Assembly: GCF_002159335.1 (NCBI RefSeq) | Contig: NZ_NFHP01000007.1 | Span: 1 to 64,000, forward strand | Length of the DNA: 64,000 nucleotides | Direction: 5' to 3' | Source: Collinsella sp. An7 | Lineage (GTDB): Bacteria; Actinomycetota; Coriobacteriia; Coriobacteriales; Coriobacteriaceae | In this document: positions 2,673 through 50,715 of the stretch, one piece after another | Layout: the number at the start of each line of letters is the position of its first letter | Numbering within the stretch: position 1 is the first letter of the stretch | Notes under the pieces: model-generated | What the model saw: only the letters and a program-made list of their open reading frames with translations | Told to the model about the DNA's origin: nothing | The model's database searches: none | Made by a program: the position numbers and the translations under genes

Positions 2673-3872
2673 CTAGCCGCCTATCTGGGACATGAACCGT
2701 TCGGTCCCCTCAATGACCTCGTGCTCCTGCGGCTTGTGGACAACCGCGTCGCGCCAGATGGCGAGCACCCGGGCGTCATCGCCCGCACGGAGCGCCTCGC
2801 GCACGGGATACTCCGCGTCGGAGAAGAGGCACGGGCGGATGGAGCCGTCCGCCGTAAGGCGCATGCGGTTGCAGGAGCTGCAAAAATGGTTGGACATGGC
2901 CGAGATGAAACCGACCGTGCCCGCCGCCCCGGAAAACCGCCAGTAGGCCGCCGGGCCCGCACCGGAGGGACCGCCGTCGGCAACCGGCTCGAGCCCGCCC
3001 AGCCCCGCCGCCACACCCGCATGCGAGATGCGCTCGCAGAGCTCTGCCGAGGGGACGGTGTCGCTCGCGTCCCACGCGCTCGCATTGAGATTGCCGCCGA
3101 GGCAATGCGGATCGGGAGCTGAGTTTTTGTCCGGCTGCGGCCCACCGGGACAAATGCCGGCCACCGTGGCGGGGCCGCCCTCCTCGAGCACCGCCGGCGC
3201 GTCGGCTTCGAACGCGGCGGCTGTGGGCGCATCCTGGGCCGCATCGTGCGCGCGATCGGTGCCAGTCTGCTCGTCGCCGATGGGCATGTACTCGATAAAG
3301 CGCACGTGCACAGGCCGCTCAACCGAGAGCTTCGCCAGCCCAAAAACATCCTGATTAAGCCGGCGCACCACCACACAGTTGACCTTGACGGGATCGAACC
3401 CCCAGGCAAGCGCCGCGTCGATGCCGCGGAGCGTCTGCTCCAAGCGGCCGAGTCGCGTGATCTGCGAAAACTGCCCAGGGTCGAGCGTGTCGAGCGAAAT
3501 GTTAACGCGGTCGAGCCCGGCCTTCTTAAGCTCCGGGGCCAGTTTGGGCAGCAGCGCACCGTTGGTAGTAAGCGAGATGTCCTCGATACCGGGAATGGCC
3601 CGCAGCTCGCGAATGAGCGGTACGATCCGATGCGAGACGAGCGGCTCGCCACCCGTCAGCCGGACGCGGCGGATGCCCTCGCCCGCCACGAGGCGAACAA
3701 AATGAGAGATCTCCTCTGCCGAGAGCAGCTCGTCGTGCGCGCGCGGCGGAACACCCTCGGCGGGCATGCAGTAGATGCAGCGGAAGTTGCATTTGTCCGT
3801 CACGGCAATCCGCAGATAGGAGATGCCGCGGCCATAGCCGTCGTGCAGCTCGTGCGGCGCGCGGTCCAGCAT
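2673..3872 (-). CDS. moaA: GTP 3',8-cyclase MoaA with an internal insertion
   Basis: This is a radical-SAM enzyme for the first step of molybdopterin synthesis, converting GTP to 3',8-cH2GTP. The N-terminal cluster motif CNFRCIYC is at residues 28-35, LTGGEPL follows, and the second [4Fe-4S] site is CSSC at 331-334 plus Cys348. The protein ends in Gly-Gly, as expected for MoaA. I chose the ATG at 3872 because GGGGAGGG lies 8 nt upstream; an ATG at 3899 is in frame but has a weak site. At 399 residues it is longer than the usual length near 330. The excess is an insertion at about residues 205-275, rich in Ala, Pro, Asp and Gly, between MPIGDE and the C-terminal cluster. It is followed by the moaC-mobB fusion. 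Confidence 0.93.
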
Positions 3873-4005
3873 ACGGCGGCCCTCCCCGTCTCCCGACATT
3901 ATTCTCTGTTGAGGATAACACGGACGACCGCGACTCGTGTCACGGGGGGATGGGTCCCCTGGAGCCATTCCAAGTGACTCATTTTGGGACGGGGTCAAAG
4001 GTACC

Positions 4006-4160
4006 CGCCACCGATTGACAAACTGCAAGGAAACCAGGGCAGCGCGGCAAGTTGTGCCGCGGATGGTCAAACGGAGAGGAGAATCGTCCCCTCGCCTTGA
4101 CAATCTGCAGCTCAATACGGATGAGCCGGTGGATTGCAACGCAGTTTGTCAATCGGGGCG
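4006..4160. repeat. Large interrupted inverted repeat between serS and moaA
   Basis: A perfect 16-bp inverted repeat (4011-4026 CCGATTGACAAACTGC, and its reverse complement at 4141-4156) encloses about 114 nt; CGCC/GGCG extends the arms. A smaller hairpin CGGCA/TGCCG lies inside at about 4045-4060. The rest of this 370-nt gap holds two half-copies of the REP-like motif: GGGACGGGG near 3987-3995 and, inverted, CCCGTCCCC near 4225-4233. No gene is visible. The overall design (about 155 nt, outer stem, internal hairpin) resembles the elements at 9923, 15852, 31224, 37647, 53612 and 57273, although the internal boxes are not shared. Confidence 0.7.
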
Positions 4161-4243
4161 TGACGCCGTGCCCTTTGTTTGACGATCAGCAGCGGAACTC
4201 GCCCGGAGCACTGAGAAAAACGCACCCGTCCCCATATTCTCGC

Positions 4244-5527
4244 CTACTCGATCACCTCGAGTCCGCCCATGTAGGGACGCAGCACCTCGGGGACGGTGAT
4301 GGTACCATCGGCGTTTTGGTAATTCTCCATGATGGCGGCCATCGTGCGGCCCGTGGGCAGACCGGAGCCGTTGAGCGTGTGCACGTAACGGCTGCCCTTG
4401 AACGCCGCCGGGTCGCGGTACTTGATGTTGGCGCGCCGCGCCTGAAAATCGCCGCAGTTGGAGCAGCTCGAGATCTCCTTGTAGGCGTTGTAGCTCGGCA
4501 GCCAGACCTCAACGTCGTAGGTCTGACGCGCCGAGAAGCCAAGGTCGCCGGTGCAGAGGCTGATCACGCGGTACGGCAACCCCAGCTGCTGGAGCAGGTA
4601 CTCGGCCTCGGCCGTCATGCTCTCGAGCTCGTCGTCCGACTCCTCCGGGCGCGCAAACTTGACCATCTCGACCTTGGTGAACTGGTGCTGGCGGATGATG
4701 CCGCGCGTGTCGCGACCGGCCGAGCCCGCCTCCTCGCGGAAGCACGGCGTGCCCGCGGTGTAGCGCAGCGGCAGGTCGGCGGCGTCGAGCACCTCACCGG
4801 CATGCAGGTTGGTGAGCGCCACCTCGGCGGTGGGGATGAGGAACTGGTCCTCGCCCGTGTGATAGGCGTCGTCCTCAAACTTGGGCAGCTGGCCCGTGCC
4901 GTACATGATCTCGCGGTTGACGATCACCGGCGGGATGAACTCCTTAAACCCGCGGGAGATGTGCGTGTTGAGGAAGAAATTCTGGAGCGCGCGGTCGAGC
5001 GCGGCGCCAGCGCCGGCGAGCACGGTAAAGCGCGCGCCGGAGAGCTTTGCGCCGCGATCGAAGTCGAGAATGCCCAGGTCGGTACCCAAATCCCAGTGCG
5101 CCTTGGGCTCAAAGCCCTCGGCGGCAAAATCGCGCGGGGTGCCCCAGCGGCGACGCTCGGGGTTCTCGGTCTCGTCCTTGCCCACCGGCGTGGCCGCGCA
5201 CGGGATGTTGGGCAGGTGCGCCATAAAGTCGTTGAGCTCGGCCTCGAGCGCGCTGCGGCGCTCGGCCAGACCCTCGATCTTCTCGTTAACCTCGCGCACG
5301 GCCTCCTTGGCGGCCTCGGCCTCGTCGCGTTTGCCCTCGCGCATGAGCGCGCCGATCTTCTTAGACTCGGCGTTGCGCGTGGCCTGCAATTCCTCGACCT
5401 CGGTGATCACAGAACGGCGCTCCTCGTCGAGCGCAAAGAAGCGGTCGCGGTCCCACGAGGTCTGGCGGTTTGCCATGGCCGTGTCGACGGCGTCGGGGTT
5501 CTCGCGAACAAATTTAATATCGAGCAT
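4244..5527 (-). CDS. serS: Seryl-tRNA synthetase
   Basis: This class II aminoacyl-tRNA synthetase charges tRNA-Ser (and tRNA-Sec where present). At 427 residues it has the normal length. Residues 1-110 form the N-terminal coiled-coil arm that grips the long variable arm of tRNA-Ser; it is rich in Glu, Arg and Ala heptads. Class II motif 2 appears as [15 protein letters not shown] followed by HQF. Motif 3 is [18 protein letters not shown] near the C-terminus. The ATG at 5527 has GGGAGGA a few bases upstream. A matching tRNA-Ser(UGA) gene is at 53270. No T-box leader is visible in the short upstream region. Confidence 0.97.
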
Positions 5528-5648
5528 GATTCCTCCCGGTCATATGCTCCTACGGGCGGTGCCGGTACGGACCGTACGCGCCCCGTGCTCTGGCAAGTAT
5601 ATACTTATTGCATCCTGACCCCGATGAAGAAGGCGAGAAGCCACCGGT

Positions 5649-5819
5649 ATGGAAGCGTTTTTTACTTTTCTGTTTAGCACGCGCGCGGGGCTTGCGGTGC
5701 TCTTTTTTGGAGGCATCGCCGTCATTGCGATCATTGCCGCAGTGACCGAGCGCCGCACGCACCAGATCTACGTCGACCGCGGCCCCACCAGCGAGGACGA
5801 GGACGGCTGGACGCTCTAG
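5649..5819 (+). CDS. Small single-pass membrane protein, 56 residues
   Basis: A short ORF encoding MEAFFTFLFSTRAG at its start, one hydrophobic helix at about residues 14-32, then TERRTHQIYVDRG and an acidic tail SEDEDGWTL. The predicted topology is N-out or membrane-embedded with a cytoplasmic C-terminus, by the positive-inside rule. It resembles the small, widely conserved coriobacterial membrane proteins annotated only as a DUF (possibly DUF6724). That assignment comes from recall and is not proven. The gene is divergent from serS. The spacer holds the palindrome AAGTATATACTT at 5595-5606, which contains a TATACT box. Purine-rich sequence GAAGAAGGCGAG precedes the ATG. Confidence 0.6.
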   Translation: MEAFFTFLFSTRAGLAVLFFGGIAVIAIIAAVTERRTHQIYVDRGPTSEDEDGWTL

Positions 5820-35317: not shown

Positions 35318-37588
35318 ATGGTCGTCGCCATCATATCGTTCATCGCCGCCGTAGCGAGCATCGCGCTCGGCGTGTTCGCCAACCGGCGCTTTGCCGCCCT
35401 GCCTGCCGAGGAGGCCGGAGCACCCGCGGGCAATGCTGACGCGCCTGCCAATCGCACCAAGGCGCTCCCCTTCCGCACGAGCGGCATCGTCTGGGGCGTC
35501 GTCTTTACCGCCCTCCAGGTCTTTATCGGTGTGTGGGCGGCACTCGGCCTTGTGCAGAACGACGTCCTCTCGTCGCTCATCATGAACCTCGTGATCACCG
35601 CCTGCGCCGTGGCCTGCTTTACCCGCCCCCACCTCACCGCGCGCCTGCGCGCCCTCACTGCGGAGGGCGGACGCTTCCCCCATCCGCTCGCAGCCAGCAT
35701 CATCGCCCTCGTGCTCGCGGGCGTCTTTGCCACGTTTGGGCTCGAGATTCCCAGCAACCACGACATCACCTGGATGTACCCACTCTGCCTGCTGCTCGAG
35801 TTTGCGCTCATCACCGTCGCGATGGCCGGGCTCTTCTTTATCTCGCAGCGCCGCGGCGGCGCGAGCGCCTTCCTCGCGCTCGCGCTCTGCATGCTCGGCA
35901 TCGCCGAGTACTTCGTGATCCTCTTCAAGTCGATGCCCATCCAGCCCGGCGACCTCTTTGCCCTCAGCACGGCCGCCGCGGTAAGCGCCGGCTACACCTA
36001 CACGCTCTCGGCCTACTGCCTCTACGGCATCGCGCTCGCCGCCGTGGCCGCGCTCCTCTGCCTCGCCGCCGGCGCGTGGCGCCCCGAGCGCGCCCAGCGC
36101 AGCCGCCGCGGCCTGGTAATCAACCTCATCGTGGGCGTGCTCTGCCTTGCGGGGATCACCGCGCACGTCACGCTCATCGACTACTACAACACCCTCGGCA
36201 TCCAGATCTACACCTGGCGCCCGCTCGAGAGCTACTACCGCCAGGGCTACCTGCCCTCGTTTATCTCGAGCGCGCAGACCATCATCCCGCCCAAGCCCAA
36301 AAACTACTCCACCGGCACCGCCGAAAAGCTGCTCGACGAGTACGTTGCCACCTACGACGAGCAGGATGCCGCCAACGAGGCGCGCACCCAGGCCACCGCG
36401 CAGTTTGACGAGGAAAAGCCCACGGTCATCGCCATCATGAACGAGACCTTCTCCGACCTCTCCATCTACCAGAACCTCCACGCCGGCTACGAGGGCCCCA
36501 CGTTCTTTAAGAGCATCTCCGACGCCGTGGCGCGCGGCACGCTCTACGTCTCGGCGTACGGCGGCGGCACGTGCAATACCGAGTTTGAGTTCCTCACCGG
36601 CAACTCCATGGCCTACCTCGGCAACGGCGTGTACCCCTACTCCACCTACAACCTCACGCAGACCAAGAACCTCGCCCAGCAGTTCAGCGACCTGGGCTAC
36701 GCCACCACGGCCATGCACCCCAACCACGGCACCAACTGGAACCGCGAGAACGTCTACCGCGACTTTGGGTTTGACAACTTCCTCACCATCAACGACTTTG
36801 CCGATGCCGACCGTCTGCGCGGCATGGTGACCGACGAGGCGACCTACGACAAAATCCTCGACCTGCTGAACGAGAACAGCGATCCGCAGTTTATCTTTGA
36901 CGTGACGATGCAGAACCACTCCGGCTACGAGACGGGGCTTCTGCCGTACGACAAGCAGGTCAACTATCTCGTCGACGGCGTGTCCGACCCCGAGGTCAAC
37001 GAGTACCTTGCGCTCATCCAGGAATCCGACCGCGCGCTCGAGGAGTTCCTGAGCAAGCTTGAGAAGCTTGACCGCAAGGTTGTGCTGGTGTTCTTTGGCG
37101 ACCACCAGCCGTTCTTCCCCGACACGTACAACGACGCCTGGTTTACCAACGAGGACGAGGCCGTGCACGCCGAGCGCCTGTGGCAGACCGACTACGTGAT
37201 CTGGGCAAACTACGACGTGGCGGGCTCGAGCCAGACGAGCGAGCAGGTCGACACCTCCACCAATTACCTCGGCTCGATGCTGCTCGAGCTCATCGGGGCG
37301 CCGCTCACCGACTACCAGAAGGCGCAGATTGCGGCACGCACGGAGATGCCGGCCATCAACACGACCGGCTACTGCGACGCCGACGGCACGTGGTTCCTCA
37401 CGGGCGAGAAGATCGATGCGCCCGAGGGCTCCGCCGCGGAGCGCGCAGCGACCACGCGCTACGACCTCTCGATGATCCAGTACTTTGAGCTCTTTGGACA
37501 CGGAGGCGGCATCTTTACCAAGCACCAGCAAGACGCCGCCAACGAGACCGACCCCAACCTCGCCCCGGGAACGACGAAGATCAAGTAA
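35318..37588 (+). CDS. LTA synthase-family phosphoglycerol transferase
   Basis: A 756-residue membrane enzyme of the alkaline-phosphatase superfamily. About seven hydrophobic segments fill the first 300 residues, and an extracellular sulfatase-like domain begins near KPTVIAIMNETFSDLSI, whose Glu and Thr would be the metal ligand and catalytic nucleophile. The Asp-His pair in FFGDHQPFFP and the NHGTN and MQNHSGYE segments complete the active site. LtaS and related proteins transfer glycerol phosphate from phosphatidylglycerol to teichoic acids or glycans. The ATG at 35318 has GGAGGG upstream. The actual polymer made here is unknown. Confidence 0.9.
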   Translation: MVVAIISFIAAVASIALGVFANRRFAALPAEEAGAPAGNADAPANRTKALPFRTSGIVWGVVFTALQVFIGVWAALGLVQNDVLSSLIMNLVITACAVACFTRPHLTARLRALTAEGGRFPHPLAASIIALVLAGVFATFGLEIPSNHDITWMYPLCLLLEFALITVAMAGLFFISQRRGGASAFLALALCMLGIAEYFVILFKSMPIQPGDLFALSTAAAVSAGYTYTLSAYCLYGIALAAVAALLCLAAGAWRPERAQRSRRGLVINLIVGVLCLAGITAHVTLIDYYNTLGIQIYTWRPLESYYRQGYLPSFISSAQTIIPPKPKNYSTGTAEKLLDEYVATYDEQDAANEARTQATAQFDEEKPTVIAIMNETFSDLSIYQNLHAGYEGPTFFKSISDAVARGTLYVSAYGGGTCNTEFEFLTGNSMAYLGNGVYPYSTYNLTQTKNLAQQFSDLGYATTAMHPNHGTNWNRENVYRDFGFDNFLTINDFADADRLRGMVTDEATYDKILDLLNENSDPQFIFDVTMQNHSGYETGLLPYDKQVNYLVDGVSDPEVNEYLALIQESDRALEEFLSKLEKLDRKVVLVFFGDHQPFFPDTYNDAWFTNEDEAVHAERLWQTDYVIWANYDVAGSSQTSEQVDTSTNYLGSMLLELIGAPLTDYQKAQIAARTEMPAINTTGYCDADGTWFLTGEKIDAPEGSAAERAATTRYDLSMIQYFELFGHGGGIFTKHQQDAANETDPNLAPGTTKIK

Positions 37589-39642: not shown

Positions 39643-40368
39643 TTACAGCTCGCGGCGCTCGTAGAGCTTGAGCGAGACGGCGGCCGAAATGCCGAGCACC
39701 ACGACGGCAAAGGCCACGGCGATACCGAAGCACACCGCCACACCCATCGGCGTCTCGATGAAGCCGAGGAGCCGGGTGATCGTCTCCATGTGGACGGCGC
39801 CGCTATCGAGGATGCCCGTGCCGTTGACGATGAGCATGGGCCCTACAAAGAGGAGCACCGTGATCATGGGCAGCCACTGAGTAGTCTTGTTCTGGCCAAA
39901 CCTGAAGTAGATGGGTGTCTCGATTGCGGCGATGAGCGCGCCCAGCGCCAGGCAGAACGCCGTGGCAAAGACCGCCCCCTGCAGCATCTCCTGGTCAAAG
40001 GCGATAGCTTGCGAAAGGCCAAACGGCAGGTCGACAACGCCCGAGAGCGCAAGCAGCACCGCGCAGGCGGCCCACCCTGCCACAAGCCCCACCAGACCGA
40101 GCGTCACGATAACGCCGTAGCGCCCAAGCACGATGTCGCGGCGGCTCACCGGCATGGTAAGCCTAAAGCGCCCCCAGCCGTTCTGCTCGTCGTACGCAGC
40201 CGCCGCCATGGTACCCATCATAAAGAACATCATGGTGAGGATGGCGGGCGCAGCCACGATGGAGCCCATGCCGGCGCTCACAAAGATCGCCACAAAAAAG
40301 CCGACGCCCATGAGCTGCCTGATGTAGTCGCGAAAGATCGTCAGCTCCATAAGGTATGCGCGCTTCAT
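39643..40368 (-). CDS. ABC-2-type permease
   Basis: A 241-residue permease with six predicted helices and the conserved loop AAYDEQNGWGRFRLTMPVSRRDIVLGRY, seen as motifs DEQNGWGRF and MPVSRRDIV, which identifies the ABC2_membrane_5 family. With the ATPase directly upstream (stop TAG immediately followed by ATG) and the YtrA-type GntR gene it forms a YtrA-YtrB-permease module. Such modules respond to cell-wall antibiotics or other envelope stress. Confidence 0.92.
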   Translation of the reverse strand: MKRAYLMELTIFRDYIRQLMGVGFFVAIFVSAGMGSIVAAPAILTMMFFMMGTMAAAAYDEQNGWGRFRLTMPVSRRDIVLGRYGVIVTLGLVGLVAGWAACAVLLALSGVVDLPFGLSQAIAFDQEMLQGAVFATAFCLALGALIAAIETPIYFRFGQNKTTQWLPMITVLLFVGPMLIVNGTGILDSGAVHMETITRLLGFIETPMGVAVCFGIAVAFAVVVLGISAAVSLKLYERREL

Positions 40369-41346
40369 CTATCGCACACCGCCTTTCAGGGTGAGGGTAA
40401 GGTAGTCGTCGATGGCCATACGGTCGACAGGGATCTCCGGAAAGCGCTCGGCAAACGTAAAGCGGTCGGGCACGAGCACGTCGATGCCGTAGTCGTGCTT
40501 GCGGTAGCGCAGCTCGCGCTCGGGAATGAGCCCCGAGGCCGCCACGCGCTCAAAATCTGCCACGCGGCAGCGGGCGATACCCATCTCGTCAGTGATCTCG
40601 TCTTTGGCGAGGTCAAAGACGATACGCCCCGCGTCGATGCAGAGCACGCGGTCGGCGATGCGCTCGAGGTCCGAGGTTATGTGGCTCGACATGAAGATGG
40701 CGCGGCCCGGCTCGGCCACGAAGTCGCGCAGGCGGTCCAGCAGCTCGTCGCGCGCCATGGGGTCGAGGCCAGCGGTGGCTTCGTCCAAAATGAGCACCCG
40801 GGCATCGTGCGAGAGGGCGCAGGCGAGCGAGAGCTTCATACCCATGCCACGGGAGAGGTCCTTGACCTGCTTTGACCCCGCGAGCTCGAACTCGTGCGTC
40901 AGGCGCTCGAAACCGCGCTGGTCCCACGTGCGGTAGGCGTGCGCAAAGACCCGTCCCACGTCGACCACACGCAGATGTCCGGGCATCGAGACCGTGTCGA
41001 AGACCACGCCAACCCGCTCCTTGACCTCCGCGCGCTCCGGGCGCGAGAGCGCATGGGACGGCATGCCCAGCACGCGGGCTTCGCCCCCGTCGAGCGCGAT
41101 GAGTCCGAGCAGCGCCTTGATCGTGGTGGACTTGCCGGCACCGTTCTGGCCGACGAAACCCACGATCTCGCCCTCGTCGACGGCGAAGCTCACGTCTTGG
41201 AGCGAGAAGCCGTCGTAGTGCTTGGTGATGCCGCGCGCCTCGATGATGTGCCCACGATCGCTGAGGGTAAAGCGGGATCGGCCCGAGGTTTCGGCAAGGC
41301 CCCTCGTGGCGAGGGAGTCCTTTGTATCATCGACGATAATCGCCAT
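40369..41346 (-). CDS. ABC transporter ATP-binding protein (YtrB-like)
   Basis: A 325-residue ATPase. It has Walker A GQNGAGKST, a degenerate signature LSRGMGMKL, Walker B VLILDEATAGLD and the switch SSHI. A C-terminal extension of about 90 residues follows, as in bacitracin- and YtrB-type exporters. The ATG at 41346 is chosen over GTG at 41355 because the GAAAGAGTGA site suits it better. It is the middle gene of the GntR-ATPase-permease operon. Confidence 0.93.
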   Translation of the reverse strand: MAIIVDDTKDSLATRGLAETSGRSRFTLSDRGHIIEARGITKHYDGFSLQDVSFAVDEGEIVGFVGQNGAGKSTTIKALLGLIALDGGEARVLGMPSHALSRPERAEVKERVGVVFDTVSMPGHLRVVDVGRVFAHAYRTWDQRGFERLTHEFELAGSKQVKDLSRGMGMKLSLACALSHDARVLILDEATAGLDPMARDELLDRLRDFVAEPGRAIFMSSHITSDLERIADRVLCIDAGRIVFDLAKDEITDEMGIARCRVADFERVAASGLIPERELRYRKHDYGIDVLVPDRFTFAERFPEIPVDRMAIDDYLTLTLKGGVR

Positions 41347-41370
41347 GCGAATCACTCTTTCGGTCGGATG

Positions 41371-41440
41371 GAGATGGATGGGGACAGGTTCATTTCATCC
41401 CCTGGATGGGGATGGATGGGGACGGGTTCATTCCATCCCC
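41371..41440. repeat. Tandem REP-like half-elements
   Basis: Two adjacent copies of GGATGGGGACRGGTTCATT, each ending in CATCCCC, at about 41376-41402 and 41404-41440. Each contains a short internal palindrome GGATG/CATCC. The second ends at the stop codon of the GntR gene. Confidence 0.75.
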
Positions 41441-41824
41441 TCACGGCTGCGCCCCCTCTTCGAGCGCAAATTCGAACATCTCGGTGAGCTCGGCGTCGGT
41501 GAGCCCGAGCGAGCGCCCGGCATCGATCGCCTGCCCCAGATAGCCCTCGACATGGCGGAGCTGCTCCTCGCGGATGAGTTCGGCGTTGCCGCCCGCCACG
41601 AAGCTGCCCTTTCCCTGAACCGTCTCGATGAAGCCGGCGGCCTCGAGGTCGGCGTAGGCGCGCTTGGTGGTGATGGCGCTCACGCGCAGGCTGTTAGCCA
41701 GTGCACGGATGCTCGGCAGCTGCTCGCCCTGGGTGAGTTCGCCGGTGAGGATGAGGCCCTTGATCTGACTTGTAATCTGCTCGTAGATGGGGGCCGAGCT
41801 GGAATTTGAGATGATGAGTTCCAC
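41441..41824 (-). CDS. YtrA-type GntR regulator
   Basis: A 127-residue short GntR protein with only the winged helix and a two-helix C-terminus, the YtrA subfamily. Motifs are PIYEQITSQIKGLIL, LPSIRALANSLRVS and TTKRAYADLEAAGFIETVQGKG (as TTKRAYADLE and VQGKGSFV). The start is GTG at 41824 with AAAGG 11 nt upstream; longer in-frame sequence runs through the promoter and is not coding. YtrA proteins repress their own ABC operons. The operator at 41949-41978 and the two downstream ABC genes fit that role. Confidence 0.93.
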   Translation of the reverse strand: MELIISNSSSAPIYEQITSQIKGLILTGELTQGEQLPSIRALANSLRVSAITTKRAYADLEAAGFIETVQGKGSFVAGGNAELIREEQLRHVEGYLGQAIDAGRSLGLTDAELTEMFEFALEEGAQP

Positions 41825-41948
41825 GTAATCGATATCCTTTCTGTGCGCCCGGCGGGGCGTCCCTTGCCGGGATGCCGCGCGGCGGGCGTCCCCACAGCGC
41901 GGCGCGGCGACGGCCCGACGTCTTCGACCGTCTCCGCATCGGGTACAC

Positions 41949-41996
41949 TGTATATACTCGATAAGTACAGTATATACACTCATATACACAGTGCAA
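41949..41996. promoter_or_regulatory. Operator and divergent promoter of the YtrA-type locus
   Basis: A perfect inverted repeat TGTATATACT (41949-41958) and AGTATATACA (41969-41978) with a 10-nt spacer. On the minus strand TTGCAC (41991-41996), 16 nt and TATACT (41969-41974) form a promoter for the GntR operon, so the repeat sits on its -10 region. The same site lies 67 nt upstream of the divergent permease gene at 42045, so one repressor could control both directions. Confidence 0.75.
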
Positions 41997-42044: not shown

Positions 42045-43541
42045 GTGCGTCGGGTGCTTCTGAGCTTGCAGCGGGCAATCGCGCGACACCGCGCACTCGT
42101 CGCGGTGACCCTCCTTGCGGCCGCACTCGCCGCCTTGCCCGCGCTCAGACCGGTTGTCGGCTGGTCGAACGACCCCTCCGCGCAGCAGCAGGCCTTTCGC
42201 TCTGACCCCACCTTCACCGAGGCGCGCGATGCTCTTGCGTCCTATCGCGAGCTGATTGAGATGGGAGAGCGCCTGCTCGCACAAAAAGGTCCCGACCCCG
42301 CGCTTGAGCGCATGCAAGACCAGCTGGAGCGCTCCGTGGCGATTCTTGCGCGCATCGTTGAAGCACCCGACGCCTCAGCGTACTGGGGCGCCTATGCCGA
42401 ACTCCATGAGCTGAATGCCGAGGATACCAACAGCATGCGCACCTACTGGAGCGCACGGGCGTCATTTGAGCGCGCCCTTTCCGAGCTCGCGACGCCCGTG
42501 GTGTACCGGCTTCCCCAAACCATGCCCGCGCTCGTGTACCTCACTTCCGATCTCTATGTGCTCGCACCGCTCGCGCTCAGCCCTTGGGGCGCGTGGCTGC
42601 TCCCAGACGACGTGCCGGGCTACGATGGGTCGCTCGACTTTGCGGTTTGGATGATCCCCCTCGCAGCGGGCGTGCTCGCCGGGGTGGAAAGCGGCGTCGT
42701 CCGTCGGGGCAGCACCCGCGGCGGCGCCTGCGCCGCAGGTACACGGATGCGCAACGGAACCTGGGCGCGCAGCCTTGGGCACGCGTGGGTGCGGGGTACG
42801 GCGTGGGGCGCCGGTGCCGCGCTTGCAGTAACGCTCTCCGGGGCGATGGCGGCGGCGCTGCGCAACGGGGTCGGCGACCCCTCCTACCCGATCGTCTACC
42901 TCACCGGCGGAAACGCCACCGTCTCCACCACGGTGGGCGCCGTCCTTGTGGAGCGCGGCACCCTCATGCTCGGCATCGCGGCGCTTGCGTCCGCCGTCGC
43001 GGTGGCGCTTCGCACGCTCACCCGCTCGCGCATCCCCGCAGCGGCGCTCATTGCGGGCAGTATCGTCCTCGCGGCGCAATCCTGGTACTTCGCCCCGCTC
43101 AGCCCTCTGCGCGGGGTCGCTCCGCTGCTCCCCACAACGTACCTCGACCCCAGCCGTGCGACGGGAAGCGCCCAGGCCGACATGAGCGGCCTGCCAGCGG
43201 CCGGGTTCGGAGGCATCGACGCACAAACCGGGATCGCGGTCATCGCAGGCGGCGCAGCGTTTCTTTTCGCTTGCACCCTTGCCGCGGGCCTTCTCGCGCG
43301 CTCGGTCGCGCGATGGCTCGGCCGCAACGGGCGGAGGGGCGCGGCCGTGCGTCTGCCGCTGCCCTCCCGGCGCGTACTCTTTCGCATCGGCGACGCCCCA
43401 CGCGCTTGCGCTGCTCGCGCACCCGGCGATCCTCTTGCCCACGGCCCGCCAAAGCCGGTACCGGCACAGCTCAATGCGTCCCCGTACGTCGCGTGGTGTC
43501 GACTCGTCTCCCTTACGCACTCGCGCATTCCTCCCCCATAG
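42045..43541 (+). CDS. ABC-2-like permease with large extracytoplasmic domain (module type 1)
   Basis: A 498-residue membrane protein. Architecture: first helix at about residues 19-37; a helical extracytoplasmic domain of about 130 residues; a stretch PALVYLTSDLYVLAPL; then five or six helices, with the loop RNGVGDPSYPIVY between two of them. The Arg-rich, Pro-rich C-terminus after about 430 is poorly conserved-looking. The same domain order and the RNGxGDxxYP motif recur twice in the next gene. The start is GTG at 42045 after GAGGGAGG. With the next two genes it forms a divergent operon controlled from the same intergenic region as the YtrA-type operon. Function unknown; an exporter or an immunity system for a peptide is the best guess. 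Confidence 0.8.
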   Translation: MRRVLLSLQRAIARHRALVAVTLLAAALAALPALRPVVGWSNDPSAQQQAFRSDPTFTEARDALASYRELIEMGERLLAQKGPDPALERMQDQLERSVAILARIVEAPDASAYWGAYAELHELNAEDTNSMRTYWSARASFERALSELATPVVYRLPQTMPALVYLTSDLYVLAPLALSPWGAWLLPDDVPGYDGSLDFAVWMIPLAAGVLAGVESGVVRRGSTRGGACAAGTRMRNGTWARSLGHAWVRGTAWGAGAALAVTLSGAMAAALRNGVGDPSYPIVYLTGGNATVSTTVGAVLVERGTLMLGIAALASAVAVALRTLTRSRIPAAALIAGSIVLAAQSWYFAPLSPLRGVAPLLPTTYLDPSRATGSAQADMSGLPAAGFGGIDAQTGIAVIAGGAAFLFACTLAAGLLARSVARWLGRNGRRGAAVRLPLPSRRVLFRIGDAPRACAARAPGDPLAHGPPKPVPAQLNASPYVAWCRLVSLTHSRIPPP

Positions 43542-43553
43542 CCCAAGGAGCAA

Positions 43554-43580
43554 ATGATCACGAGAGCGAAAGAGAGATGA
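43554..43580 (+). CDS. Possible 8-codon leader peptide coupled to the large permease
   Basis: AAGGAG at 43545-43550 precedes ATG at 43554, which opens MITRAKER and stops at a TGA that overlaps the next ATG as ATGA (43577-43580). The large permease start itself has only a weak purine run, so translation may be coupled through this mini-frame. The 3-nt spacing from the ribosome binding site is short, which weakens the case. Confidence 0.25.
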   Translation: MITRAKER

Positions 43581-46078
43581 TTCACATGCTGAAAGTCCAT
43601 GGCGCGCATCGCCGACAAGGCACCCGTGCTACTCCGGGAGCGCTCGGCCTCACCGTGCGCTACGCGCGAGAACTCACCCGCACCACCGTCAAGAACCGCC
43701 TGCTGTGGGCCCTCGCCGCGGCCGAGGCGCTGCTCTTGTGCCTCACCCTCGCCCTACCACCGGGGCAGCTGATCCCCACTCCGTTCAACCGCGCCGATGC
43801 GACGGCGGGCGCCCGCCTCGCCCTTGAGGGCGCGCAGACGACAGAAGGGGTATTTGCCCGCATGATCGAGGCAGGGCGCCCCCTCAGCGCCGCCGACCAC
43901 CGAGCGCTCGAGGACGCACGCACAAGCGCCGCCCTAGCCGAGGACCTGCTCGCCGCCGAGGGCGACCGCGCGTTCTACACCGCCCTCGCGCGACAGCTCC
44001 GATGGTTTGAGCAGCAGACGCGCGCGGGCAACCTCTTGGGCGGCAACGCGGGCGACTACGCGCTCGAGGCTGCCTTTCTGGAGCAACTCGTCACACTCGA
44101 CGATCCGCGCGTCTTTGAGCGGACCGCCGATATGCCCCTTCTGACCCTTCTCACCGCGCACTGGCAGAGACTGGGACGCATCCCGTTCATCAGCGCGCTC
44201 ACCGACGCGCTCGTGCTCGCCAGCGGTGCGGCCGACGACCCCGCTCTGCAGCCGCCCATCGGCTATGCGGCGCATGCGCTCTTTACGATACCGCTCGTTG
44301 CCGTGGCGCTCGTAGCGACGCGCTGGCAGACCCACCGCCGCCTCGCCGCGCAGGCGCCCGTTCCGCGCGCAGGCGCGCTCGCGGCGACGCTCGTCGTCTC
44401 CACCGTGCTCACCACGGCTATGCTCGGCGCGATCATGCTGCCGACCGCCACGTTTGTGCTGCTACGCAACGGCATGGGCGACGCTGCCTACCCCGTGGCG
44501 TACTACTTTGGCACCGAGCCCGTGCTCACGACAGCGGGGCTCGCCCTTTGTGCCCTCGTCTGTCGCATCCTGCTCGTAGCGCTCTGCGTGTCCGCCCTGG
44601 CCCTTTCCGCGGCCACGATCTCGCACCGCGTGCTGCCCGGTGCAATCGTTCTGGGTGCGCTCGCCGCGCTCCCCCTCGCACCGCAATACTTCGACCATCT
44701 GGGGCCCCTCGCCGACATCGTCCCCTGGCTCCCCAGCACATACCTCTGCATACCCGAGACCATAGGAGCGGCGGAGAGCATCCCCTCGCTTACCAGCGCC
44801 ATCATGAGCCTGCCCGGGGTGAGCGTAGCGCGCGGACGGGCAGTGCTTGGCGCCACCGCCTTGGCAGCGCTCGCGCTCAGTGCGGGAATCGAGGCGCTCC
44901 GCTGGAGCACCGGCGGCTTGCGGCACGGCGCGAGAGCGGACCGAACCGGCGGTGGGGGCACCGCGCCTGGCAGCGAGGGCACCGCCCCCGGTGATCTGCC
45001 CGCGCCCAGCAGTGAGGGCGCCGCGCACGGCGATTTGCCCACATCCGGCAGCGAGGGCACCGCCCCCGGCAGCCTGCCCGCGCCCGGCCATAAGAACGTG
45101 ACAAACCGCCATCACAACGACGAGAGCGGCCCGGATGCGCGCGGGACCGAGCGTCACCGCAGCGCGCGCACGGCGGATGACAGCCGGCCAGCCGCGCGTA
45201 CGACGCGACACCTCCTTGCGAGCCTTGCCCTCACCGTCGCACACGCGCCTGTGATCGCCGTCGCCGTAGCAGCGCTCGTCATCGTCGCTACGGCGCCCGC
45301 CGCGCTGCCGCTGCGCACCGGCATGGACCCGTTCACCCAAGAGCATTATCGCGAGCGGATCCGGCAGCATCGGCAGACCCAGGACCCCCAGGCAGCCACA
45401 TTTGACGCCGCGCTCGCCACCGAGGAGCAACGCCTTGTGCACAACGCCGCCTACGCCGACGGAGACCGAGCGTTTGCCGAGGCAGCCGCCACCTACGAAA
45501 CCTGGCGCTGCGAGCTCATCGCCTCGGGCGAGCTCGTGCCGAGCGATCCCGGCGCATCCGCGGACGCCGCGCGCCGCGCCGAGCTCTACACCGCCCTCGC
45601 AGGCCTCCCCGACCCACGCGTCATCACGCTGAGCTCCGAGCTCCCCGCTGTTGCGTACCTCGCCCACCTCGCCCGTCTCGCACCCGTCCCGCTCTGGGGT
45701 ATGCCCTCCCTCGCGACAGGCGCTGTGACGGTGGCGCGCGTACGCTGCGGCATCATGCGGCAGGCGCCCGTCCCCGCGCGCGGGCGCGGTGCCGTGGCAT
45801 GCCTCGTGGCGCTTATCGCGGGAGTCATCGCCTGCGCGATCACACTCGCCGGCGCCATGGCGCTCGCATGCGCGCGCAACGGCTGGGGAGACCCGCAAAC
45901 GCCGTCCCTCGTCTCCGCGGCGGCGTTCGCCCCCGCAAGCGACGTGATCGCCCGGCAAGCGCTCTCCGTCTCCCTCGTCATCCTCGGCATCGCGCTTATC
46001 GCAGGCGTCGCCGGCGCCGCGCTCTCCCGCGATACGCGCCGCACCCTGCACCGCATCCCTTCATCACGCCATCGGTAA
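43577..46078 (+). CDS. Two-module ABC-2-like permease
   Basis: An 833-residue membrane protein made of two copies of the module in the gene before it. Module A (about 20-440): first helix, helical outer domain, MPLLTLLTAHWQRL, several helices and RNGMGDAAYPVAYYF. A low-complexity linker of about 100 residues follows, with degenerate repeats of EGTAPGxLPAPGS type. Module B (about 540-833): helix, outer domain, LPAVAYLAHLARL and RNGWGDPQTP, but it stops after fewer helices than module A. The start at ATG 43577 is uncertain; ATG 43586 is equally possible. A much longer frame open upstream is an overlap with the previous gene and is not real. The ATPase gene follows after 9 nt. Confidence 0.8.
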   Translation: MIHMLKVHGAHRRQGTRATPGALGLTVRYARELTRTTVKNRLLWALAAAEALLLCLTLALPPGQLIPTPFNRADATAGARLALEGAQTTEGVFARMIEAGRPLSAADHRALEDARTSAALAEDLLAAEGDRAFYTALARQLRWFEQQTRAGNLLGGNAGDYALEAAFLEQLVTLDDPRVFERTADMPLLTLLTAHWQRLGRIPFISALTDALVLASGAADDPALQPPIGYAAHALFTIPLVAVALVATRWQTHRRLAAQAPVPRAGALAATLVVSTVLTTAMLGAIMLPTATFVLLRNGMGDAAYPVAYYFGTEPVLTTAGLALCALVCRILLVALCVSALALSAATISHRVLPGAIVLGALAALPLAPQYFDHLGPLADIVPWLPSTYLCIPETIGAAESIPSLTSAIMSLPGVSVARGRAVLGATALAALALSAGIEALRWSTGGLRHGARADRTGGGGTAPGSEGTAPGDLPAPSSEGAAHGDLPTSGSEGTAPGSLPAPGHKNVTNRHHNDESGPDARGTERHRSARTADDSRPAARTTRHLLASLALTVAHAPVIAVAVAALVIVATAPAALPLRTGMDPFTQEHYRERIRQHRQTQDPQAATFDAALATEEQRLVHNAAYADGDRAFAEAAATYETWRCELIASGELVPSDPGASADAARRAELYTALAGLPDPRVITLSSELPAVAYLAHLARLAPVPLWGMPSLATGAVTVARVRCGIMRQAPVPARGRGAVACLVALIAGVIACAITLAGAMALACARNGWGDPQTPSLVSAAAFAPASDVIARQALSVSLVILGIALIAGVAGAALSRDTRRTLHRIPSSRHR

Positions 46079-46087
46079 GGAGGCCTC

Positions 46088-46780
46088 ATGCTCATCGCAA
46101 CCCATCTCAGCCTTGGATACGGCAGGACCGTACTTTTGGAGGACGTCTCGCTCACGCTCGAGCCGGGAACCGTCACCGGGCTCGTTGCACCCAACGGCTT
46201 TGGCAAGACCACGCTGCTGCGCGCCCTTGCGGGCATCGACGGGGCGCGGGCGCGCGGCGCGCTCGACGTCGATGGCACAGGCCCGCGCGATGGGAGCGCC
46301 CTGCGCCGCCTCGTCTTCTACGCTCCGGGCGACGCTACGCTCCTCTACCCTAACCTTACGGCGCGCGACCACCTGCGCATGGCGGCGCGGCTGTGGGCAA
46401 GCCCACTCGACCCAGACGTCGTCGCCCGGCGCACCGGCACGGACGCGTTTGCGCACAAGCGCGTCCGCGCGCTCTCGCAGGGCATGAAGCAGCAGCTCAC
46501 ACTCGCCATCGCCTATCTCACCTGCGCGCGCTACCTCCTGCTCGACGAACCCATGAACGCCCTCGACCCCACCAACGTGCAGCTGCACTCGCAGATTCTG
46601 CGCGGCATCGCGCGGCGTGGGGCCGCCGTGGTCATGAGCTCGCATATCCTGGACAACATCGACGCCATTGCGGACCGCATCGTCTTCATCAAAGACCGCG
46701 GCCTCATCGAGCACGACCCCGCGCACAGCACCGCACGGGCCCTCGAGCTTTACCGGCGCCTCTACCAGTCGTTCACGTAA
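46088..46780 (+). CDS. ABC transporter ATP-binding protein of the modular permease locus
   Basis: A 230-residue ATPase. The P-loop is APNGFGKTT, with Ala replacing the first glycine. The signature region is LSQGMKQQLTLAIAYL, Walker B is YLLLDEPMNALD and the switch is MSSHILDNID. The sequence resembles ATPases of lantibiotic-immunity and ABC-2 export systems. The ATG has AAGGAGG upstream. It is the last gene of the three-gene operon with the modular permeases. Its TAA stop lies in TTCACGTAA, which matches the inner arm of the stem-loop repeats at 12261. Confidence 0.92.
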   Translation: MLIATHLSLGYGRTVLLEDVSLTLEPGTVTGLVAPNGFGKTTLLRALAGIDGARARGALDVDGTGPRDGSALRRLVFYAPGDATLLYPNLTARDHLRMAARLWASPLDPDVVARRTGTDAFAHKRVRALSQGMKQQLTLAIAYLTCARYLLLDEPMNALDPTNVQLHSQILRGIARRGAAVVMSSHILDNIDAIADRIVFIKDRGLIEHDPAHSTARALELYRRLYQSFT

Positions 46781-46835: not shown

Positions 46836-48698
46836 TCAGGCAAACTGCGCGCGGTACAGCTCCGCGTAGGCACCGCCCGCGGCGATGAGCTCGTCGTGCG
46901 TGCCGCGCTCGATAATCCGGCCGTCGCGCATCATGAGGATGCAATCCGCCTCGCGAATCGTGCTCAGGCGGTGCGCCACCACAAAGCTCGTCCGCCCAGC
47001 CATGAGCTGGTCAAAAGCCGCCTGAACCTGCAGCTCCGTGCGGGTGTCGATCGAGCTCGTAGCCTCGTCGAGCAAAAGAATCGCTGGGTCGGTGAGCATC
47101 ACACGGGCGATGCAGAGCAGTTGCCGCTGCCCCTGAGAGAACGTCCCGCCGTCCTCACCGATCACCGTGTCATACCCCGCGGGCAGCGCCCGGATAAACG
47201 AGTCGGCGTGCGCCCGCTCGGCCGCCGCCACAATCTCCTCGCGCGTGGCATCAGGCCGCCCGTAGGCGATGTTCTCAGCCACCGTGCCCTCAAAAAGCCA
47301 TGTGTCCTGCAGCACCATGCCAAACGCTGCGCGCAGGCTCCGCCGCGTGAGCTGCCGGATGTCCACCCCGTCGAGCGCGATGCGCCCCGCGTTTACGTCG
47401 TAAAAGCGCAGCAGCAGGTTGATGAGCGTGGTCTTACCGCAGCCGGTCGGTCCCACCAGCGCAAACCGCATGCCGGGCCGCGCGTGCACGCAGATGTCGC
47501 GCAACAGCGGGCGCTCGGGCACATACGAGAAATCCACGTGCTCGATCGCCACATCGCCGCGGGGATCGACAAGCTCCACGGCATCGGGCGCGTCGGGGGC
47601 CTCCTCGGTTGCGTCGAGCAGGGCGAATATGCGCCGGGCCGAGGCAAACGCGATCTGAATCTGCGTGATTACGCTCGTGACCTCGTTAAACGGCTTGGTG
47701 TACTGGTTGGCGTAGCTCAAGAACGTCTGTACCCCGCCCACGGTGAGCGGCGCGGGCCAGCCGGTGATAACGCACACGCAGCCGAGCACGCCCACCACGG
47801 CGTAGATGATGTTGTTGATAAAGCGCGTCCCGGGGTTAGAGAGCGAGCTCAAAAACTGTGCGCGCTCGCCCGCCACGTACAGCTCGCTGTTAAGCCCCTC
47901 AAAGCGCTCCTCGGCGCGCGGCCCAAAGGCAAACGCGTCCACGAGCTTCTGCTGGCCCACGTACTCCTCCACGTGCGCACCGAGATTGCCCTGGATGCGC
48001 TGCTGCGTGGCAAAACTGCGGTTGGAGAGCTTGGCGATGAGCCAGGCCGCAAGGATGGAGAGCGGTGTGACGAGCACTACCACGATGGCCATGGGAACCG
48101 ACACCGAGAGCATAAAGACAAGCGTGCCCACAATGGTGACGACGCCGGTAAAGAGATTCGTGAAGCCCTGGAGCAGGCCGTCGCCGATCTGCTCAACGTC
48201 GTTGACCACGCGGCTGATGAGGTCGCCGTGCGGGTGCGCGTCGATAAACGAAAGCGGCATGCGACCGATCTTCTCGGACGCATCGACGCGCAGGTCGCGA
48301 ATGGCACGGAACGAGAGCCGGTTGATGCAGTAGCCCTGGACCCACTGGGTCACCGCGGCAATCGTAACCACAACGGCAAGCTGCACCGCAATCGCGCCGA
48401 GCCGTGCAAAATCGACGTTGCCCGTCCCGATGATGCAGTCGATGGCCTGGCCGACCTGAATGGGCACGTAGAGCTGGAGGATAACGGACACCGCCGCGGT
48501 GACGAACGACACCACAAAGAGTCCCGCATGCGGACGAACGTAGCGGGCGAGCCGGCGGACAACCGTTGCCGGAGAAAGTACGGGACCGCCCGCGAGCGAA
48601 CCCGGACCGCCAGGTGCGTTGGGGCCGGAGGAGGAGCCGCCGGCGATGCTCGAGGTGACGGTTGCCACCGATCCGGTCGATGCGTAGGGATTAGGCAC
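46836..48698 (-). CDS. ABC exporter half-transporter, catalytic subunit
   Basis: A 620-residue permease-ATPase. A Ser/Gly/Pro-rich N-terminus of about 40 residues precedes six helices (about 50-340). The ATPase has GPTGCGKTT, FSQGQRQLL and LLLDEATSSID with the catalytic glutamate. The start is GTG at 48698, overlapping the stop of the upstream ABC gene (GTGCCTAA), with GAGGAGGTGA upstream. It pairs with the degenerate subunit at 48691 to form a heterodimeric exporter. This is the second such pair in the window, but without an adjacent regulator. Confidence 0.93.
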   Translation of the reverse strand: MPNPYASTGSVATVTSSIAGGSSSGPNAPGGPGSLAGGPVLSPATVVRRLARYVRPHAGLFVVSFVTAAVSVILQLYVPIQVGQAIDCIIGTGNVDFARLGAIAVQLAVVVTIAAVTQWVQGYCINRLSFRAIRDLRVDASEKIGRMPLSFIDAHPHGDLISRVVNDVEQIGDGLLQGFTNLFTGVVTIVGTLVFMLSVSVPMAIVVVLVTPLSILAAWLIAKLSNRSFATQQRIQGNLGAHVEEYVGQQKLVDAFAFGPRAEERFEGLNSELYVAGERAQFLSSLSNPGTRFINNIIYAVVGVLGCVCVITGWPAPLTVGGVQTFLSYANQYTKPFNEVTSVITQIQIAFASARRIFALLDATEEAPDAPDAVELVDPRGDVAIEHVDFSYVPERPLLRDICVHARPGMRFALVGPTGCGKTTLINLLLRFYDVNAGRIALDGVDIRQLTRRSLRAAFGMVLQDTWLFEGTVAENIAYGRPDATREEIVAAAERAHADSFIRALPAGYDTVIGEDGGTFSQGQRQLLCIARVMLTDPAILLLDEATSSIDTRTELQVQAAFDQLMAGRTSFVVAHRLSTIREADCILMMRDGRIIERGTHDELIAAGGAYAELYRAQFA

Positions 48699-50715
48699 GG
48701 TCGGTCACCTCCTCGGTGGGAAGCACGGACGAGGCGGGGGCTTCCGGCGCGGACGTGGCGCCCGGCGCCGACTCGGCATTGCCCGGCACGACCTCGCCGG
48801 GCTGGACGGCGGCCGGTCCCATGCCGCCCTGCGCGCGCAGCCGCTCCTCCGCACCCGGCACCTCCTCGCCCTGGGAGGTACAAATCTCCTGGTAAATGGT
48901 GCAGCTCCGCACGAGCTCGGCGTGCGTGCCAAGCCCCACGACGCGCCCGCGGCGCATCACGCAGATCAGGCTGGCCTCGCGCACCGACGAGACGCGCTGG
49001 CTCACGATGACCGTGGTGAACGGCAGTCCGCCCTCCGCAGCGCGTGCAGCCGAGAGCTCGCGGAGTGCCCGGCGGAGCGCCGCATCGGTCTTAAAGTCGA
49101 GCGCCGAGGCGGAGTCGTCCAAGATGAGCACCGACGGCTCGCCCACCAGCGCACGGGCGATGGTGAGGCGCTGGCGCTGCCCGCCCGAGAAGTTCTTGCC
49201 GCCGGCCTCAACCGGTGCGTCGAGGCCCTGTTCGAGTGCACGGACCACGTCGGCCGCCTGCGCGACCTCAAGCGCGCGCCACAGCTCCTCGTCGGAGGCG
49301 TCAGGCCAGCGCCAGCAGAGGTTGGAGCGGATGGTCCCCGAGACGAGGCTCGCCGTCTGCGGCACCACCGCAACCTCGTGTCTGAGCTGCGCCAACGGCC
49401 AGCTGCGCACGTCGGTGCCAAAGAGCTCGACCGCGCCCTCGCTCGCATCGTAGAGACGCGGGATGAGGTTGACGAGGGTCGACTTGCCCGAACCCGTGCC
49501 GCCGATCACGCCGAGCGTCTGGCCGGGCATGAGCGAGAGATCCACTGCGTCGAGCGCCGGTGCGGAGGCACCGGGGTACGTGAAGGAGACGTCGCGGAGG
49601 CGGATGGCGGGGGCGGATCCTACGGGGTCCGCGGCGTCCTCGGCTGCAAGAGCGCTCACACCGCCAGCGGTTTCGGCCGCAAGAGCGGCCTTCAAGTTCG
49701 CTGCTTCCTCCGCCACCGCATTTGCGGCATTGGGCAGTTCCACCTTTGTGTTGCCCGTATCGATGATGCTCGGCGTACAGTCAAACACCTCGTTGATACG
49801 CCAGGCGCTCGCGCTCGCCTTGGTAAAGACGACCACGAGATTCGCCACGTACACAATGGAAAGCAGCGTCTGGGTCATGTAGTTTACAAAGGCCATGACC
49901 TCGCCCTGCGAAAGACTGCCCACGCTTACGAGCTGGCCACCCTGCCAGAGGATGGCGCACACCGCGAGGTTCATCACCAAAAAGGTCACGGGGTTGAGCA
50001 CCGCCGAGAGCTTGCCCACGGCGATCGCCACGGCCGCCTGGTCGTCCGCTGCCTTGCGGAAGCGCTTTCGCTCGTGCGCCTCGCGGGAGAAGGCGCGGAT
50101 CACGCGCACGCCCGAGAGCCCTTCGCGCGTGAGGAGGCCGATGCGGTCGAGCCGGGCCTGCACCTCGCGAAAGAACGGGACGCTGCGGGACATGACCCAC
50201 CAGAACACCGCGGCGATGATGGGCGTCGAGATGAGGAAGATGAGCCCAAGCTGCACGTTGATCAGCAACGCGGCGATCATGGAGCCCACCGCCAAAAACG
50301 GCCAGCGGATGAGCTGACGGATGGCCAGCGCCACGGCAAGCTGCACCTGGTTGACGTCGTTGGTGATGCGCGTGATGAGCGAGGGCGTGCCAAAACGGTC
50401 GAGCTCGGCGTACGAGAACTCGTTGATGTGATGGTAGAGCGCGGTGCGGATATCGGTGCCGATGCCCTGCGACGCGCGGCTCGCCATCTTTTGGCAGACG
50501 AGCGCAAAGGCAATGCCCACGAGCGCAAAGACGCCCAGCATGCCGCCGTAGTACAACACTGCCGAGAGGTCCCGGTGGGTAACGCCCTCGTCGATCATCG
50601 CCGCCACCACAAGCGGCGTGAGCACGTCAAAGACGACCTCGATGAACTTGCAGAGGGGCCCTACGATAAGGTTGACGCGAAACCGGCCAAAGAAGCGCCG
50701 GGCGATCTGGAGCAT
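48691..50715 (-). CDS. ABC exporter half-transporter with degenerate ATP site
   Basis: A 674-residue permease-ATPase. Six helices lie at about 15-310. The ATPase has Walker A GGTGSGKST, signature FSGGQRQRL and VLILDDSASALD, where Asp replaces the catalytic glutamate. An Ala-rich insertion of about 45 residues (AANLKAALAAETAGGVSAL region) lies between the membrane and ATPase domains, and an Ala/Pro tail of about 60 residues follows the ATPase. The ATG at 50715 is 6 nt after AGGAG; an ATG two codons upstream is too close to the site. Partner of the gene at 46836. Confidence 0.93.
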   Translation of the reverse strand: MLQIARRFFGRFRVNLIVGPLCKFIEVVFDVLTPLVVAAMIDEGVTHRDLSAVLYYGGMLGVFALVGIAFALVCQKMASRASQGIGTDIRTALYHHINEFSYAELDRFGTPSLITRITNDVNQVQLAVALAIRQLIRWPFLAVGSMIAALLINVQLGLIFLISTPIIAAVFWWVMSRSVPFFREVQARLDRIGLLTREGLSGVRVIRAFSREAHERKRFRKAADDQAAVAIAVGKLSAVLNPVTFLVMNLAVCAILWQGGQLVSVGSLSQGEVMAFVNYMTQTLLSIVYVANLVVVFTKASASAWRINEVFDCTPSIIDTGNTKVELPNAANAVAEEAANLKAALAAETAGGVSALAAEDAADPVGSAPAIRLRDVSFTYPGASAPALDAVDLSLMPGQTLGVIGGTGSGKSTLVNLIPRLYDASEGAVELFGTDVRSWPLAQLRHEVAVVPQTASLVSGTIRSNLCWRWPDASDEELWRALEVAQAADVVRALEQGLDAPVEAGGKNFSGGQRQRLTIARALVGEPSVLILDDSASALDFKTDAALRRALRELSAARAAEGGLPFTTVIVSQRVSSVREASLICVMRRGRVVGLGTHAELVRSCTIYQEICTSQGEEVPGAEERLRAQGGMGPAAVQPGEVVPGNAESAPGATSAPEAPASSVLPTEEVTDRA

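Follow-up and report, generated by a model that had tools for sequence, protein, structure and literature searches.

The window analysed here, a stretch of 64,000 nucleotides from Collinsella sp. An7, contains at positions 42045-46780 a three-gene operon that encodes three copies of one permease module (X1, X2a and X2b) and one ABC ATPase. Gene 1 (42045-43541, forward strand) specifies a protein of 498 residues made up of a single six-helix module, X1 (42072-43283, forward strand), and a cytoplasmic tail; its GTG start agrees with a relative from the genus, G050, which has ATG at the matching position. Gene 2 (43577-46078, forward strand) encodes two modules in one chain of 833 residues, and gene 3 (46088-46780, forward strand) encodes the ATPase of 230 residues. 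Gene 1 is related to both halves of gene 2 (BLASTP, E 7e-13 and 7e-7), and with an iterated module profile of about 377 positions all three copies are recognised as members, X1 scoring 391, X2a 398 and X2b 208 bits. An initial annotation made from the sequence alone had proposed three module copies in two genes with a dedicated ATPase, and gene calls, BLASTP and the profile bear this out. The three motifs it had singled out also lie where it had placed them: RNGVGDPSYP of X1 (42861-42890, forward strand) at the predicted extracytoplasmic end of TM3, with the topology taken from the model of gene 2, RNGMGDAAYP of X2a (44465-44494, forward strand) between TM3 and a beta-hairpin, and RNGWGDPQTP of X2b (45875-45904, forward strand) as a pattern match. 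The underlying pattern RNGxGDxxxP did not occur once in 2000 shuffles. In the tail of X1, the motif PGDPLAHGPP (43422-43451, forward strand) is kept at the protein level in most X1 proteins while the rest of the cytoplasmic tail varies; an RNA element at this motif was ruled out, since synonymous sites vary.

Within gene 2, module X2a (43679-44881, forward strand) is a full six-helix ABC-2 domain according to the profile, the AlphaFold model and structural alignment. It is followed by a low-complexity linker (44912-45187, forward strand) that is predicted to be disordered and unconstrained and that contains a 39-bp tandem repeat in 3.3 copies (44961-45088); the linker sequence is very different in G050 and is the sole part without sign of constraint when the two operons are compared. 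Module X2b (45236-46060, forward strand) keeps TM1, the extracytoplasmic domain (about 45305-45700, forward strand, in the AlphaFold model) and TM2-TM4 and lacks TM5-TM6, its match stopping at profile position 297 of 377, so that the shortened last copy and the repeat linker reported earlier are both real.

The model of gene 2 (24 aligned rows, mean pLDDT 80, pTM 0.76) orders X2a as TM1, a helical outer domain, TM2, TM3, the motif with the beta-hairpin, TM4, TM5, a short outer part and TM6, and lets X2b end after TM4. The helical extracytoplasmic domain of about 130 residues is inserted after TM1 (about 43754-44263, forward strand, in X2a), and RNGxGDxxYP is placed outside TM3. In VIA-align comparisons, X2a matched PmtCD best (Z 16.7, 3.7 Å over 237 residues, at 9% identity and with an aligned part that omits the inserted outer domain), followed by NosY (Z 15.8) and by ABCA and ABCG chains at about 13-15, the range over the PmtCD, NosY, ABCG and ABCA chains being Z 16.7 to about 12.4; Foldseek on its own was weak, giving no E-value below 0.1. 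As modelled, the membrane part is an ordinary ABC-2/type V six-helix domain and not an unknown fold, and the same operon encodes an ATPase with Walker A, signature, Walker B and H-loop. The earlier statement that the system cannot be assigned to a described one thus stands at the level of the family, for which there is no Pfam or NCBIfam match, but not at the level of the fold, where the structure prediction suggested as a check returned the known ABC-2 architecture rather than a new one. The outer domain had no match when X2a was aligned as a whole module, and weak matches to a Tom20-like domain (E 0.023 and E 1e-4) were taken as matches of helical composition.

The ATPase carries the Walker A variant APNGFGKTT and the signature LSQGM. 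The replacement of the first Walker A glycine by alanine, one of two alterations pointed out in the initial annotation, is real and common to the whole family, Firmicutes members included, but the other, LSQGMKQQL, is presumably an ordinary signature variant among BcrA/DrrA-type ATPases. The ATPase looks active, for the H-loop and Walker B, including the glutamate of the latter, are intact. Its best NCBIfam match is the lantibiotic-protection subfamily TIGR03740, with 115.4 bits below the cut-off of 309.75, and the PmtC and PmtA equivalog models were likewise matched below their cut-offs (80.5 against 375 and 74.7 against 350 bits), while the best PDB matches of the ATPase profile by sequence are ABCA lipid transporters. 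A role in anti-phage defence was considered and rejected, as the permeases had no PADLOC match and the ATPase matched generic ATPase models only (best mad3, 74 bits).

Divergent from the operon lies a regulator gene (41441-41818, reverse strand) that had been described as YtrA-type. The orientation is divergent and the regulator is GntR-type, with its best match to the PmtR model, below the cut-off (116 against 200 bits). The gene is part of a cassette (39643-41824, reverse strand) of a PmtR-like regulator, a PmtA-like ATPase and an ABC2_membrane_5 permease, which is specific to the window genome at this site, is missing from the same site in the two relatives G050 and Collinsella sp. An268, and is probably a recent insertion or duplication. 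The regulator also has a 77% identical paralog in the window genome, of a type found throughout the genus. A YtrABCDEF-type operon with the GntR protein as its own regulator was therefore rejected for want of a conserved link, and the proposed coupling of regulator and operon does not hold as an ancestral one. The divergent genes are separated by AT-rich operator-like repeats upstream of gene 1 (41944-41993; TACACTGTATATACT / AGTACAGTATATACA / ATATACACAGTG), through which, judging from their position, the regulator may act on the operon now. Just downstream of the operon are two large ABC genes (46836-50715, reverse strand; 620 and about 674 residues), probably a heterodimeric exporter; a pair of this type is also found downstream of the operon in several relatives.

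No family in Pfam or NCBIfam covers the module, and its relatives had no Pfam match either. A first scan of named genomes with gene 2 as query and without a profile found no match. More than 100 copies were identified with the profile; Coriobacteriaceae and Atopobiaceae account for nearly all of them, Firmicutes for a few. At the search threshold the module is present in 53 of 248 genomes of the class, a few of these matches being weak, and strong matches come exclusively from two families of the order, that of the window and one other; in a search of 396 phylum genomes, the matches outside those families were all weak and partial and concerned other permeases. Named records with the module belong to Collinsella, Enorma and Candidatus Coprousia in the Coriobacteriaceae and to Olsenella, Atopobium and Parafannyhessea in the Atopobiaceae. 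Single modules occur in records of Pilibacter, Trichococcus and Sedimentibacter (E 1e-23 to 1e-30) and on plasmids of Enterococcus casseliflavus and Jeotgalibaca. The family comprises a single module with an ATPase, a module fused to the ATPase (about 604-620 residues), a double module with an ATPase and the three-module form of the window, and its presence within the genus is patchy. By these sequence comparisons, the modules appear to make up an undescribed pump family.

In a tree of 59 modules, X1, X2a and X2b are each recovered as a single, fully supported clade; those of X1 and X2a fall with the first module of two-module relatives (99/99), and that of X2b falls with the second (94/92). 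The simplest history suggested by this tree would be duplication of the first module of a two-module permease to give a gene of its own, followed by loss of TM5-6 from the second module. The X1 gene of another genome (G046, locus L037, 5265-7535) encodes further membrane helices beyond the module that may be the remains of a second one, which suggests that the whole two-module gene may have been doubled. Comparison of the window with G050 gave dN/dS values of 0.28 for gene 1 and 0.29 for the X1 module, 0.24 for X2a, 0.30 for X2b and 0.16 for the ATPase. All three modules are under purifying selection, and the value for X2b means that the truncated copy is in use. A frameshift behind the short third copy was ruled out, the truncation being common to all three-module relatives. 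The operon is nonetheless dispensable, since in the close relative Collinsella sp. An268 it has been lost, the 5' end of gene 1 being fused there to the ATPase gene, of which the last three quarters remain (L089, 7974-8531).

A survey of small genes near the modules brought up a family of proteins of 104-127 residues with a signal-peptide-like start, a conserved V.DTY segment and, in most cases, an aromatic C-terminus. Their N-termini have AxA ends, the signal peptides being assigned by simple rules. The peptide gene either follows the gene for the ATPase or the fusion protein or precedes that for the permease. Four members were scanned against Pfam and NCBIfam and fitted no family, and no description of the peptides was found in the literature, mostly in its freely accessible part. 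A peptide profile gave 30 strong matches in the 248 genomes of the class, 25 of them within 2 kb of a module, and four of the five located elsewhere lie at contig ends; the chance expectation is about 0.3% per match, and since related genomes do not count as independent, a binomial value serves only as a guide. Pumps of the single-module, double-module and ATPase-fused kinds all show the pairing, which extends over two phyla, having been seen in Collinsella, Enorma and Atopobiaceae, on a Trichococcus contig, on an Enterococcus plasmid, where the peptide gene is divergent from the ATPase-permease pair, and on a Collinsella aerofaciens plasmid, where it comes after a fused-type ATP-binding-cassette gene (L189, pair at 3682-5370 and 5372-5716). 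Peptide and module are not invariably linked, as a weaker group of paralogs occurs in tandem pairs away from modules (L190, L191, L192, L193). In two Collinsella-type loci the peptide is followed by a second small protein of 142-143 residues with a signal-like start (L109, 9106-9537; L111, 2766-3194).

The mature peptide is predicted to form four long beta strands (AlphaFold, pLDDT 93.6); none of the solved chains aligned reached Z of at least 5, and lactococcin 972 was not among the matches listed. From size, signal peptide, plasmid carriage and pairing we infer that the peptide is a bacteriocin. In another Trichococcus relative, the module pump is part of a class IIb bacteriocin locus (L119, 2371-9806) that encodes several double-glycine peptides, one of them above the TIGR03949 cut-off, together with a probable kinase and a probable regulator. 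The neighbourhood search for bacteriocin genes proposed in the initial annotation was productive beside relatives, whereas the peptide gene (A4/A5 profile) is absent near the window operon and from its genome, as well as from nine other genomes with the three-module form or the peptide-less two-module form. The window operon is a peptide-less branch of the family.

With about even confidence, the operon can be regarded as an ABC-2 (type V) pump of the peptide-protection or bacteriocin-immunity type, and we infer a protective role in the window itself by analogy with relatives. The earlier guess of a self-immunity pump gains support from this family context, in which relatives pair with a secreted small protein or a bacteriocin locus. 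Since apparent Sec signal peptides are present on the paired peptides, the other guess, a peptide exporter, is the less likely one. It belongs to a broader alternative, which we consider unlikely, that the operon is a secretion pump for its own peptide or a lipid and that the paired small proteins are accessory or cargo. True exporters do exist among ABC-2 folds, and PmtCD, the closest neighbour by structure, is an ABC exporter according to its title; however, signal-peptide-like N-termini with AxA ends would make a dedicated exporter unneeded, and the window has no cargo gene of the paired-peptide family.

Handling of membrane or cell-envelope lipids or of cell-wall precursors, with peptide resistance a side effect or absent in the window branch, is quite improbable in our judgement, even if the ATPase profile is closest by sequence to ABCA lipid transporters in the PDB, the outer domain follows TM1 as in ABCA proteins, and a nearby gene (35318-37588) is by eye what we take to be LtaS-like. 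The peptide link of the wider family would be hard to account for in that case, and a housekeeping role in lipid handling fits poorly with the patchy presence within the genus. In several Atopobiaceae loci (L172, L173, L175, L177, L181) the pump (and peptide) is followed by genes for a probable response regulator and a probable kinase. These would suit a peptide sensor-transporter that feeds a two-component system and protects indirectly, but no such genes are found beside the window operon or at most Collinsella loci, and we give this explanation very little weight.

If protection is the function, the ancestral pumps would have shielded producers from their own secreted peptide, the outer domain catching the peptide and ATP driving its expulsion from the membrane or cell surface in a LanFEG-like manner. 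In the window branch, a permease gene with two modules, A-B, would then have grown into (A)(A-B). The two complete A-type modules, X1 and X2a, would probably pair as the membrane dimer, bound to two ATPase copies, and X2b, which has lost TM5-6 yet is selected, might serve as an accessory or substrate-catching part. The window operon is probably an orphan protection pump, and since it has no peptide gene of its own, its present role would likely be protection against related peptides from neighbours. More tentatively, and at somewhat less than even confidence, peptides and pumps can be proposed to represent a new bacteriocin class, in which a beta-sheet peptide secreted by Sec has an ABC-2 immunity pump dedicated to it whose outer domain catches the peptide. 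The class would be widespread in gut Collinsella and Atopobiaceae, plasmid-mobile and also present in enterococci, with the window as its three-module, peptide-free protection branch containing a half-lost, still used third module. This provides a testable identity for permeases left unnamed by databases and draws attention to small secreted proteins of common human gut bacteria, a family without a name whose members may be bacteriocins. The odd architecture of three membrane modules, one truncated, per ATPase gene would moreover show how ABC-2 transporters gain or lose half a membrane domain.

Among known systems, LanFEG expels lantibiotics from the membrane of the producer (PMC5786555). Like the window system, LanFEG/NisFEG consists of one ATPase of about 225-230 residues and two six-helix membrane parts, and it is paired with a toxic peptide in producers. 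However, LanE and LanG, each of about 24-28 kDa, are made as individual proteins, whereas here two modules share one chain and the third is truncated; the modules are about 400 residues long with a 130-residue outer domain, in contrast to the small six-helix LanFEG permeases, and the window ATPase stays under the TIGR03740 cut-off. Lactococcin 972 is a secreted bacteriocin encoded on a plasmid together with ABC genes thought to confer immunity (PMC4055356, PMC11796350), and its group resembles the module family in combining a small Sec-secreted beta-rich protein, plasmid-borne in the type case, with a following two-gene ABC transporter. The paired peptides, however, fall outside Pfam PF09683, which had no match in the window genome and one, in G058, among 67 genomes of the family. 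The permease, too, differs in being ABC-2 and without match to the NCBIfam bacteriocin-associated membrane families, the model giving none for P0001, P0003 or two Firmicutes relatives. By the criteria tested, the module family belongs to neither the LanFEG nor the lactococcin 972 group. The phenol-soluble modulin exporter PmtCD is the closest solved fold of the membrane domain, the likeness being one of fold only. As for ABCA-type lipid transporters, the ATPase is separate here and the membrane part has no detected sequence relation to theirs, but ABCA proteins have two ABC-2 domains in one chain and an outer domain after TM1, a plan that the module family shares.
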